The notes under the pieces are model-generated. The model saw only the letters and a program-made list of their open reading frames with translations, made no database searches and had not been told where the DNA came from. This document shows, piece by piece, positions 35,932-40,465 of a stretch of 40,465 nucleotides of DNA. The stretch's first letter is position 1. The number at the start of each line of letters is the position of its first letter. The position numbers and the translations under genes are program-made. The DNA is taken from positions 64,361 to 104,825 of the forward strand of contig DXHY01000045.1 in assembly GCA_019113175.1 (NCBI GenBank), written 5' to 3'. Source of the DNA: Candidatus Eisenbergiella stercoravium. Lineage in GTDB: Bacteria; Bacillota; Clostridia; Lachnospirales; Lachnospiraceae.

Positions 35932-35957
35932 AAAACAGGAATGAAGCAGCAGATTCA

Positions 35958-36002
35958 GGCAGCCGGAAAAGCGGTTTTTCTCCGCTTCTCCGGCTGCCTT
36001 TT
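35958..36002 (+). terminator. Terminator of the aspartate-pathway cluster
   Basis: GGCAGCCGGA (35958-35967) and TCCGGCTGCC (35989-35998) with an inner AAGCGG/CCGCTT stem, then TTTT. Confidence 0.88.
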
Positions 36003-36219
36003 CCGTGACGGAGGATGTTTGCCGCAGGAAGCGCGTTGATCTGCCGCAGAAAAAACGTCGGAATATAAAATCTGTCTGATCAGTCTTTTCTGTCTGCCGT
36101 CAGTATGAGAAATGTCCTTAAATTGTCAGATAATTCAATAAATTTAAAACAAAATACACATAATATTATGTAATATACTAATAAAAATAGAAAACAATGT
36201 AAAAATAGAAAAAAAGTCA

Positions 36220-36257
36220 AAAAACTTGTTGACAATAAGAAGACGTAAGACTATAAT
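36220..36257 (+). promoter_or_regulatory. Perfect consensus stable-RNA-type promoter
   Basis: TTGACA (36229-36234), a 17-base spacer and TATAAT (36252-36257), both perfect. The 17 bases at 36220-36236 are identical to those of the tRNA-Gly promoter (38651-38667). About 110 bp of A/T-rich sequence upstream (from 36116) could be an UP element. Confidence 0.85.
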
Positions 36258-36263
36258 GAAGTC

Positions 36264-37019
36264 ACAAACAAAGAAGAGAACAAAAATAAAAAGAAGGAGG
36301 TACGGACCGCCGAAAACGTAAACCTTATTTCTTAAAAGAAGAAAGCTTTTAAGAAAAGAAAAAAGACAATTTCATAGGAAAAGCCTTAAAGACGGATCAG
36401 AAAGAGGAAAAGAATCTCCGGGAGGAACGCCTTTGGATTGAAGGAAGACAACCTGAAGAAACCGGCAACTATAAATTGAGATTCTTTTAGAAAACGGACA
36501 TTTCCTGAAACTATCGAGAATGATCTTTATCATCAGAAGAAGAAAACAAAAAGGTTGACATCTTTAATGGAAAAGACAGAAATCGAAAGGAAGACGGAAG
36601 AAATTGAGAAGAAGGATGATCCAGACAGGATCGGATTTCAGGAAAATTGATTCCATAAGGAAAGAAGTTTTTGAAGGAAGTAATTCCTTAAAACAAAAGA
36701 CCCAGATTTAGGATAGATGGACTTCAGAAGATCAGGCCGTCAGTTTAGAGGAATCCGAAAAGAGAGGACAGAAATCTTTCAGAGACGTAAAAATAAAATC
36801 TTTAAGGAACAATGCTAATCTAACACCGAAGCGAAACGAGTACACTTACCTGAGTGGCGAAGAATCATCGAAGGATGAAAACCGTTGCAGTACATGAGTA
36901 CAAAAGGAAGAAGGAGTGGAAAGAAGAGCAGAGGAGAAAAAATGGAGGTATAGGCCATTGGATAGCATAGTTTGAGAGCGGGTATCATACATGAAAATGA
37001 TTGATACCCGCTTCTCTTT
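36264..37019 (+). ncRNA. Large purine-rich structured non-coding RNA, unidentified class
   Basis: About 750 nt between a perfect promoter and a strong terminator, with no open frame of any size in any direction. Counting 180 bases (36361-36420 and 36541-36660) gives 71% purine; 36541-36600 has 35% G+C, unlike the GC-rich genes around it. Visible perfect helices: TTCTTAAAAG/CTTTTAAGAA (36329-36338 with 36346-36355); AAAAGAATCTC/GAGATTCTTTT (36408-36418 with 36478-36488); a 9-bp long-range pair, CCTTAAAGA (36384-36392) with TCTTTAAGG (36799-36807), enclosing the former; GATCC/GGATC at 36618-36632; AAGGAA/TTCCTT at 36674-36689. It is not RNase P, tmRNA, SRP or 6S RNA by their known motifs. OLE, ROOL, GOLLD and raiA are comparison classes I cannot test here. 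Confidence 0.75.
36974..37019 (+). terminator. Terminator of the large RNA
   Basis: GCGGGTATCA (36978-36987) and TGATACCCGC (37002-37011) pair perfectly, extended by GAGA/TCTC with one bulge, then CTTT. Confidence 0.85.
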
Positions 37020-38728: not shown

Positions 38729-38801
38729 GCGATAGTGGCGTAGTTGGTAACGCGCGACCTTGCCAAGGTCGAGACCGCGGGTTCGAGCCCCGTCTATCGC
38801 T
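38729..38801 (+). tRNA. tRNA-Gly (anticodon GCC)
   Basis: A complete cloverleaf. Acceptor arms GCGATAG and CTATCGC; anticodon stem CGACC/GGTCG with loop TTGCCAA, anticodon GCC at 38762-38764; T arm GCGGG-TTCGAGC-CCCGT with one wobble. Discriminator base is T and CCA is not encoded. It is a likely attachment site for the integrase element to its right. Confidence 0.95.
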
Positions 38802-38818
38802 CTCAAAGAATCCAGTAA

Positions 38819-38857
38819 AACAGCGGCTTTCGGAGAATTCCGGGGCCGTTGTTTTTT
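38819..38857 (+). terminator. Terminator after tRNA-Gly
   Basis: AACAGCGGC pairs with GGCCGTTGTT with a wobble, followed by TTTTTT. A 13-bp tandem direct repeat (AAAATTAGACAGA, 38866-38891) lies between it and the integrase stop and could be integrase binding sites. Confidence 0.6.
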
Positions 38858-38895
38858 ACCCTCAGAAAATTAGACAGAAAAATTAGACAGAAATT

Positions 38896-40125
38896 TCACT
38901 CCGCTTTCGTGCGGAAAATTTTTGCAGAATAATCATCAGTCACATCATCACGATCTCTCTGCAGAACATGAGCATACCGCGTCATAAGGGTTTTTGGACT
39001 GTTCCCCATGACGCTCGCCACCGCATTGATGGGCTTTTTAAGGCCGAGCAGGTTGATCGTGGCGAATGAGTGCCTCAGATCATATACGGCTATGGATGGG
39101 AGCGGTTCGTCAGCCGTCTTATTGTATTTGTTCAGGAGCTTTTTGAATGCTTTGCCGTACACGTCCGGATTGATCGGCCGCCCGTTGACGGAAACAAACA
39201 GGAAATCGTTGTCTGCGAAATCAGGATCGAGCCGCCGGAAGGCTTCCTTCCACTCCAGGTGCCGGATAATCGCCGCAGTGATCGGAGGGTACAGACTGAT
39301 CGGGCGGTGCGACTGCGGATTTTTCATCTCTGTGAGGACATTATACTTATCGTACCCACGATGCATCGTGAGCAGGCCGTCCGCCGGGCGGAAGTCGGCC
39401 TCCGCAAGGCCACATACCTCTCCCGGCCGGATGCCGAGAGCAGATACGCACAACATCGGGTATATGTGAGATTTTCGCACAACATCAGAGCTGAGAAAGG
39501 CTGCCTGCTGCTCGTCGGTCCACGTCTGCTTGTCCGGCGGGATAACCTTCAGACGCTTGATCCCGTCCATCGGGCTCTCCTTGATGATTTTGAGGGTGTC
39601 TTTGCAGAAGTTGAAGATATTACATAGGACATTGATAATCTTGTTCACGGTCTCCTGAGAATACCCTTTCCCTTCCGGCTTCGGAGCGCGGAGAAGGTTG
39701 ATATATTTTTGCACATGCTCCGTCTTGATTTCCCTCACCGGAATCGTCCCGAACACGTCCCGGATGTAATGAGAATAGTTATATTTATATACTTTGTAGG
39801 TGGCGTGTGCATACCGGTCCTTTGCCGGAACGATCCACAGCCGGTATGCATCCTCACAGGTCATGTCCTTTCCGGCCGCCGGTGCGGAGAATATTCCCTC
39901 TTTTCTTCCAGTATCGCTCTTCTTTTCCCGCCTCTTCTCTTCGAATGTTTCTCCCTTCTCAATCAGCTTCAGTATCTTCGCCTCGTCTTTGACTGCCTCA
40001 GCGCGTTTGAGGCGCAATGGGCCGTTTTCAACGCGCCCGGTGTTAGGATTATATACATGCGCGTAATACTTCGTTATTTCGCGGTTCTGGCGCTTGTAGA
40101 AGCGGGTGTGTTCTTGAATAGACAT
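38896..40125 (-). CDS. Tyrosine-type site-specific integrase
   Basis: A 409-residue phage-type integrase. An N-terminal arm-binding-like region (1-60), a SAM-like core-binding domain (about 90-195, YRLWIVPAKDRYAHATYKVY), and a catalytic domain with Arg233 in ALGIRPGEVCGL, Lys268, DLRHSFAT (Arg351) and nucleophile Tyr384 in MTRYAHVL. At two positions usually occupied by histidine it has Tyr348 (YDLRH) and Asn375 (MGNSPKT). AAGGAGG lies ten bases before the ATG. The gene reads toward tRNA-Gly, whose 3' end is 95 bp from its stop, the standard layout of an element integrated in a tRNA gene. Confidence 0.9.
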   Translation of the reverse strand: MSIQEHTRFYKRQNREITKYYAHVYNPNTGRVENGPLRLKRAEAVKDEAKILKLIEKGETFEEKRREKKSDTGRKEGIFSAPAAGKDMTCEDAYRLWIVPAKDRYAHATYKVYKYNYSHYIRDVFGTIPVREIKTEHVQKYINLLRAPKPEGKGYSQETVNKIINVLCNIFNFCKDTLKIIKESPMDGIKRLKVIPPDKQTWTDEQQAAFLSSDVVRKSHIYPMLCVSALGIRPGEVCGLAEADFRPADGLLTMHRGYDKYNVLTEMKNPQSHRPISLYPPITAAIIRHLEWKEAFRRLDPDFADNDFLFVSVNGRPINPDVYGKAFKKLLNKYNKTADEPLPSIAVYDLRHSFATINLLGLKKPINAVASVMGNSPKTLMTRYAHVLQRDRDDVTDDYSAKIFRTKAE

Positions 40126-40217: not shown

Positions 40218-40465
40218 GTGCGAGCTGTGAAATCAGCATAGCTGATTTCCCCTGGCGAGCGGAGGAAACTCTGCAAGCCCTGGTAAGCTGATAACAATAC
40301 AGTAGGAAAATCCTATCAGGTAAGGTCCAGCCAGCCGCCTGTACCGAGTCCTTGGAGCCGAAGCGGTAACGTCAGGCTTAAGCGTAGGACAGGGAGCAGC
40401 AGAGCCGAAACGAAAGTGAAGTGATAGAGCTGGGAAATTATTATGAGGTTGGATATGGTCGATGT
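40218..40465 (+). mobile_element. Probable 5' end of a group II intron (runs off the window)
   Basis: GTGCG at 40218-40222 is the conserved 5' end of group II introns. What follows fits domain I: a GAAATCAGC-ata-GCTGATTTC hairpin (40229-40249), GGAGGAAACTCTGCAAGCC and dense short stems, and no open frame. It lies just after the rightward promoter of the integrated element. The expected reverse transcriptase ORF and domains V/VI would be beyond the edge, so this rests on the 5' end and general pattern only. Confidence 0.5.

Follow-up and report, generated by a model that had tools for sequence, protein, structure and literature searches.

The window analysed here, a 40,465-nt stretch of Candidatus Eisenbergiella stercoravium DNA, carries the gene for a long RNA of an apparently undescribed family that, judging by its sequence relatives, is largely confined to the Lachnospiraceae. 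From what is conserved in it, this RNA seems to be less a purely noncoding, ornate RNA than one that carries translation signals. Our preferred reading is that its product may engage ribosomes through Shine-Dalgarno (SD) modules and minigenes, acting most likely in trans on translation; it appears to be the simplest one to make use of all conserved parts, and we put it forward as tentative rather than as probable.

The gene lies on the forward strand between an aspartokinase gene upstream and a GH3 gene downstream, the product of which we take to be NagZ-like. As the sequence-only reading of the window had stated, it starts with a sigma-70-type promoter, TTGACA-N17-TATAAT (36229 to 36257), with 12 of 12 hexamer positions matched; an A/T-rich tract precedes it (36116 to 36228; GC 0.225 over 36100-36299) and may play an UP-element-like role. 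The transcript predicted from the positions of promoter and terminator and from base composition runs from 36264 to 37019 (756 nt, forward strand), its synthesis and level being likewise predictions from the DNA. It counts 324 A and 177 G, and is therefore 66% purine, not 71% as first estimated, while the impression that its composition differs from that of its neighbours was right, GC being 0.30-0.42 in 200-nt windows from 36200 to 36999 versus about 0.5-0.6 in the adjacent genes. The 756-nt span is indeed free of long open reading frames (ORFs; the longest stop-to-stop stretches are 61 codons on the plus strand and 67 on the minus strand, the latter open at the edge), but a 5-codon ORF beside the terminator (36958-36975) had been overlooked. 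The terminator itself (36977 to 37019, forward strand), described in that reading as strong, combines a hairpin that is a strong inverted repeat (36977-37012) with a T tract, CTTCTCTTTG, that is weak, and it was missed by a simple terminator scan; 11 counted pairs of its hairpin are kept in 12 of 12 sequences from the genus, with one pair varying on one side. Elsewhere in the window, the aspartokinase gene is followed by a strong GC-rich hairpin and then a T-rich stretch (35956-36000), likely its terminator, which attracts weak microRNA-model matches. Beyond a tRNA-Gly (gcc) gene at 38729-38802 comes a tyrosine integrase gene on the opposite strand (Phage_integrase, 38896-40125), and the region 38729-40125 looks like the boundary of an integrated element, and the start of a group II intron (RF02005, 58.9 bits) occupies 40307-40465, where the window end cuts it.

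A scan with all 4227 Rfam families (cmscan) placed no family on the span of the RNA at gathering score and gave chance matches only at E up to 10, so the novelty suggested for it stands; at E up to 1, none of OLE, ROOL, GOLLD, HEARO and raiA matched any of 15 loci that carry homologous RNAs. Matches to known classes at locus L014 were rejected, since they consisted of a Clostridiales-1 RNA outside the homologous RNA and of microRNA models on the terminator hairpin; the former (RF01699, 124.7 bits, L014:2195-2361) is on the opposite strand, immediately upstream of the homologous RNA. ARAGORN found no tmRNA in the window, the tRNA-Gly being its one match, and 6S RNA had no match on this span. 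A separate tmRNA scored above the cut-off in seven of the eight genomes tested, the window's own among these, and a separate 6S gene in all eight; a substitute for tmRNA or 6S was therefore discarded, because the window's own genome has each as a separate gene. In open PMC full text we found no description of such an RNA by title and abstract start (for the broadest queries, among the matches listed only), and the words Lachnospir and Roseburia are absent from the main texts of PMC11109978 and PMC6429828.

When the window's genome and 60 relatives were searched, with a repeat in the genus using the 3' part, the RNA was present in 12 of the 13 genomes of the window's genus, the sole genome without a match being 81% complete, and each of the 12 has it in one place at E 1e-5 or better. 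All 12 genus loci have a same-strand GH3 gene downstream, and ten have an aspartokinase gene upstream, the other two showing none in the flanking DNA covered. The promoter hexamers are intact (12/12) in all 14 loci first aligned (L001-L014, comprising the 12 genus loci, the window's own included, and, from other genera, L013 and L014), whereas the 17-nt spacer is free to vary. Across the 165 distinct loci with enough upstream sequence, a 12/12 promoter lies within the 250 nt that precede the first module in 107; among the controls, none of 165 reversed sequences has one, and 5 of 165 stretches drawn at random from these loci do, some of which may land on a true promoter.

Carriers among the matches listed in a module-pattern search, which matched at least 119 stretches, include Roseburia inulinivorans, Anaerobutyricum hallii, Blautia, Mediterraneibacter, Sellimonas, Acetitomaculum, Parablautia and Candidatus Eisenbergiella. 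With a sequence-only module model, 175 of 396 high-completeness Lachnospiraceae genomes, in 121 of 245 genera, matched at E 0.001; the other 221 had no match at that threshold, and the RNA is therefore not general in the family. A phylum sample gave matches at E 0.001 in four of 398 genomes, two in Lachnospiraceae and two weak ones outside (2.6e-4 and 8.8e-4), and an order sample gave matches at E 0.01 in 37 of 295, of which 32 were Lachnospiraceae and five weak ones fell in other families (1.6e-4 to 0.009). Since a promoter-plus-module pattern added four carriers that the module pattern alone had missed (G122, G141, G182 and G303), prevalence is underestimated. A phage origin was also considered and rejected, only one stretch among viral contigs having the exact form A pattern described below.

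The most conserved element of the family is a 44-nt stretch with the core RRAGGUAYRGWCCA, continued either by CCRAAAACDUAA (form A, startless) or by a start codon (form B). The window RNA has only one module of each form: form A, AAAGAAGGAGGUACGGACCGCCGAAAACGUAA, at 36290 to 36321 with its SD AGGAGG at 36295-36300, and form B at 36944 to 36975, with an SD GGAGGU, a spacer, a UUG start and the 5-codon ORF, both on the forward strand. A score matrix detected 180 modules in 89 loci versus one in reversed sequences. In some RNAs modules recur in tandem at about 50-57 nt, with seven copies each in L035 and L057, and in folding of 13 RNAs they were marginally more open than random windows (0.55 vs 0.48).

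Left of GWCC the module resembles an SD sequence, and its complementarity to the 3' tail of 16S rRNA is maintained. Only one of 257 distinct modules has less than a 5-nt contiguous match to the complement of this tail versus about 30 per column-shuffled set, a comparison inflated by relatedness between sequences. The query patterns contained AGGUA, and A/G-rich RNA tends to gain SD-like matches on its own; among the modules imposed by no query pattern, 61 of 61 match over at least 5 nt. Three SD registers (AAGGAGGU, AGAGAGGU and AGGAAGGU) recur, at times within one RNA, and some first modules lack AGGU yet have (A)AGGAGG displaced by a base or two. The 3' tail is the best 16S target window for 182 of the 257 modules. 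The GWCC-R-CC segment can also be fitted to the tail with single-base bulges (in the 61 free modules, W is A in 39, T in 20 and G in 2, and R is A in 56 and G in 5), and an extended SD helix is documented in a Firmicute, Staphylococcus aureus, according to PMC13009471. Pairing energy beyond the SD barely beats that of shuffles (mean -20.9 vs -20.3 kcal/mol, 59% better), and given this small gain extended 16S pairing, with which the sequence pattern agrees, is put forward as a possibility. A GGU/ACC hairpin predicted within the module was rejected, because the A of ACC changes to T in 28 cases and to G in two (20 and two among the 61 unimposed modules).

The main rival reading is one in which the module is the site of a dedicated form A-binding protein and the RNA sequesters that protein as CsrB does CsrA; we regard this as a genuine possibility, though a rather doubtful one. 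The tandem copies and the strong promoter would suit such a sponge, and SD pairing does not explain the AYR of the form A core or the CCRAAAACDUAA tail. Form A is not simply a reading frame either, since its UAA, where changed, turns to UUA (9/234) more than to UGA or UAG (3/234); the 61 unimposed modules have UAA at codon 3 in 44 and UUA in nine, the form A counts at large leaning towards query patterns that require AGGUA, GACC, R and, in one pattern, UAA. Against a sponge, form B modules come with in-frame minigenes, and the SD register shifts while complementarity is kept, which is unexpected for a protein site. The protein would also have to be other than CsrA (PF02599), which had no match in the window's own genome (G000, 95% complete) with positive controls in E. 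coli, B. subtilis and T. maritima. A CsrA sponge as such was rejected on this ground and because the second GGA is often AGA: codon -2 of the module is GGA in 148 and AGA in 73 of 258. As the GGU/ACC loop hairpin is not kept by pairing either, the modules do not show the loop-borne GGA repeats typical of CsrB and RsmZ.

The start-bearing modules look like minigenes, in line with the preferred reading, engagement of ribosomes. Where form A has CCR they carry AUG, UUG or GUG, and an in-frame stop follows within nine codons in 98 of 99 distinct cases (the exception, L058, stops at codon 13), as compared with 69/99 and 56/99 in the other two frames; an SD, a start, few codons and an in-frame stop are thus all present, as in translation minigenes. 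Internal minigenes, those with a module further downstream, all stop at codon 2-3 (26/26; TAA in 18 and TAG in eight), examples being AUG AAA UAG, AUG AGA UAA and AUG GGA CAU UAG. The score model behind this set favours UAA at codon 3, yet eight of the 26 stop at codon 2 and eight use UAG. When internal modules without UAA at codon 3 are compared, another stop occurs at codon 2-5 in 10 of 10 start-bearing versus 6 of 15 CC-bearing modules (Fisher p 0.003, relatedness ignored).

Terminal minigenes are longer. A recognised form B module with its hairpin ends the RNA in 67 of 213 loci, 66 of them distinct, and all 66 stop in frame at codon 5-9, with all three stops in use, whereas the other frames do so at codon 3-9 in 32 and six. 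In 58 of 66 no more than 6 nt separate the stop from the terminator stem (27 and 12 in the other frames); of the 66, three have their chosen hairpin 37-42 nt away, and in five the stop lies 7-8 nt inside the stem. The window's terminal minigene reads UUG GAU AGC AUA GUU UGA (MDSIV), and elsewhere the peptides vary (MDNEM, MDTEF, MEIAEHH, MGTEEQV and others). The ORFs nonetheless retain their length class, frame and stop position, so that translation rather than the peptide seems to be conserved. In the MDSIV and MDEIV minigenes tabulated (L008-L012 and the wider family) the Ile codon is always AUA, never AUU or AUC, which may reflect either codon choice or an RNA-level constraint (AUAGUUUA).

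This proximity of stop and stem, together with the GH3 gene downstream, also suits a cis-acting leader or attenuator, in which translation of the terminal minigene would cover an arm of the terminator and let RNA polymerase read into the next gene. Every one of the 12 genus loci, as well as L014, has a same-strand GH3 (NagZ-like) gene downstream, and the overall count is 67 of 213 loci; a constant same-direction downstream gene is therefore found in the genus and not across the family, as the remaining 146 loci show no such gene in the DNA covered, flank lengths differing between loci. Moreover, in a nearest-ORF comparison that took in some spurious ORFs, the gene that follows is a different one in at least seven loci, which have it in common on the opposite strand (radical-SAM-like by our reading), and many other neighbours are unshared; a cis target is thus not general, and as an account of the whole family we consider the leader very improbable, while a cis role on GH3 may exist for part of it. 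A type III toxin-antitoxin system was not indicated in the window, where the next gene encodes a GH3 enzyme and not a toxin of the ToxN, CptN or TenpN type.

Folding gave a mixed picture. The window RNA, terminator included, had a z of -7.2 against 20 shuffles. When the terminator was left out of the fold, z was -4.8 to -6.9 for four of the five further genus members tested and -1.4 for the fifth (L011), and 13 RNAs treated in this way divided into five at -4.8 to -8.0, four at -2.4 to -3.9 and four at about -1.3 to -1.4. The two helices that the sequence-only reading had picked out are present on the forward strand as inverted repeats: a 9-bp long-range helix (36384-36392/36799-36807, spanning 36384 to 36807) and, nested within it, an 11-bp helix (36408-36418/36478-36488, spanning 36408 to 36488). 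So is an 11-bp hairpin (36328-36338/36346-36356, spanning 36328 to 36356). The check proposed there, alignment of relatives and a search for covariation, had a divided outcome: a helix of the 3' domain covaries, but several other helices of the window RNA lack such support. In the genus alignment (12 sequences) two-sided changes are absent from all counted helices, and the covariation score is no better than that of shuffles, 264 of 500 reaching it. The long-range helix is paired in 82% of cells with no two-sided changes, a result possibly blurred by alignment shifts. The nested helix is paired in 94%, with one-sided changes in four of 11 pairs, two-sided changes in none and two pairs departing through unpaired cells only. 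All ten genus members in which the region is retained, the window's own among them, form the 36328-36356 hairpin from differing sequences; L011 and L012 lack the region.

Covariation was found instead in a small folded 3' domain that several genera have in common. It lies ahead of the terminal minigene, where 46 distinct sequences share a helix with the consensus GUAACG/CGUUAC followed by a GUAC-nnnn-GUAC hairpin; in the window these are GUGGCG/CGUUGC (36854-36859/36883-36888, spanning 36854 to 36888) and GUAC-AUGA-GUAC (36890 to 36901), both on the forward strand. The sequences were gathered with a regular expression requiring GTAC...GTACAA, after which ten duplicate loci, the chance matches L053 and L188, and all of L215 were dropped (one L215 site being a chance match and the other a duplicate of L075; a stricter expression also lost L106). 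The alignment holds 40 of the 46, leaving out L076, L119, L197, L219, L221 and L228 and retaining L126 and L192, in which the helix is broken as aligned. Within it the first helix is paired in 95% of cells, with two-sided change in four of six pairs (five such cells altogether), and both helices together in 97%. The covariation score was reached by one of 500 shuffles and the number of further pair types by 43 of 500, pairing was lost when the partner strand was slid, and RNAalifold unaided proposed the same two helices, with five of the six pairs of the first. The 4-bp GUAC stem, whose loop is variable, is invariant in 40 of 40 aligned sequences and is uninformative by itself, since the sequences were selected by it. 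Ahead of the GUAC domain, several loci (L129, L142, L150, L171 and L173) share a further motif, GUACAAAAGA, and what resembles a hairpin, GCGRAUU...AAUUCGU. In L046 the terminator finder picked out another, very strong hairpin, AACAGCCCCGGAAA...TTTCCGGGGCTGTT, at 1832-1868 of the oriented sequence, about 110 nt past the minigene of the RNA itself.

These data bear on the earlier proposal of a large structured RNA of a new class. It was right in so far as this is a long RNA gene without an Rfam family, with a conserved site in the genus and a folded 3' domain, but it missed that the most conserved elements are SD modules and a terminal minigene. A structured RNA in the manner of OLE, ROOL or GOLLD, serving in assembly or as a scaffold with the modules peripheral, is quite improbable in our view. 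A length of 510-763 nt in the 13 of 14 first-aligned loci with a recognised end, and the z reached by four of the five genus members (-4.8 to -6.9), would be in keeping with it; the chance-level Rfam matches, the z between -1.3 and -3.9 in eight of 13 RNAs, the window helices without covariation inside the genus, and lengths of 201 to 1020 nt over 57 loci (the limits being set by a rough script whose terminator finder misplaced several RNA ends) argue against it. The shortest of these, the 201-nt RNA of L050, is hardly more than modules. This RNA also weighs against an unlikely reading in which docking is only protective, the modules and minigenes shielding an A-rich RNA from RNases and the function residing in the 3' domain or in pairing with mRNAs. 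The folded domain common to several genera would fit such a role, as would the report, in the discussion of PMC8708949, that a ribosome docked at a mini-ORF SD can protect its transcript; but form A seems more conserved than simple docking would need.

Under the preferred reading, that the RNA engages ribosomes, the modules would present an SD in a conserved context. At start-bearing modules ribosomes would initiate, make a peptide of 2-9 residues and stop immediately, the last minigene adjoining the terminator downstream of the small folded domain, while form A, with CCR in place of the start as in the window's 5' module, would permit 30S docking without normal initiation. The RNA might in this way hold or cycle ribosomes and so form a sink or reserve, either to set the capacity for translation or to respond to stress. 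A more specific version, which we find doubtful, is that 30S subunits are locked onto startless modules by way of the 16S 3' tail (SD plus GWCC-R-CC with single-base bulges) and that minigenes cycle ribosomes in rounds of 2-9 codons, making the RNA a global brake or reserve for translation. Neighbours that differ by lineage, separate tmRNA and 6S genes, a csrA that was not found and a single viral contig together point to a chromosomal RNA that acts mostly in trans. With only one module of each form, a bulk sink is less obvious for the window RNA. According to PMC8708949, a strong SD at minigenes lets ribosomes reinitiate without dissociating and the shortest minigenes are the most toxic, while the two-codon mini-ORFs of toxin-antitoxin leaders act in cis, have no trans effect and are not toxic; a trans effect is thus not automatic.

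If the proposal is true, one of the major families of gut bacteria possesses an RNA devoted to engaging ribosomes via docking sites and tiny ORFs, its Met-X-stop ORFs would be among the shortest conserved reading frames in bacteria, an RNA would be added to the known controls of translation capacity, and there would be a natural test system for minigene action beyond laboratory constructs. Even if the mechanism is wrong, a family found in 121 of 245 Lachnospiraceae genera sampled and matched by no Rfam model merits annotation.

We know of no RNA that combines a long self-contained transcript, a sponge and minigenes in this way; the lack of an Rfam match, of a description in the literature and of a precedent for the combination leads us to regard it as a new category, each component of which is known singly. 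Translation minigenes of the lambda bar type occur in phage genes. They resemble the minigenes described here, as do those of PMC8708949, in a strong SD, a start, one to few sense codons and an immediate stop. Known minigenes sit in leaders or phage genes, whereas this RNA has its own near-consensus promoter and terminator and adds startless modules and a folded domain. CsrB and RsmZ are sponge RNAs that are likewise self-contained and strongly promoted, with repeated short purine-rich sites, but here the conserved site is an SD in another context, some copies carry in-frame minigenes and the host has no csrA match. The large bacterial RNAs OLE, ROOL, GOLLD, HEARO and raiA are comparable as long, self-contained classes whose role is unexplained; this RNA differs in matching none of their covariance models and in being modular, variable in length and equipped with a minigene. 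With tmRNA it shares the joining of structure and a very short ORF in one molecule, yet a separate tmRNA gene coexists with it. Finally, like SgrS and RNAIII, dual-function sRNAs that encode a peptide, it also encodes a short peptide, but in this family the peptide varies while the length class of the ORF, its frame and the position of its stop are kept.
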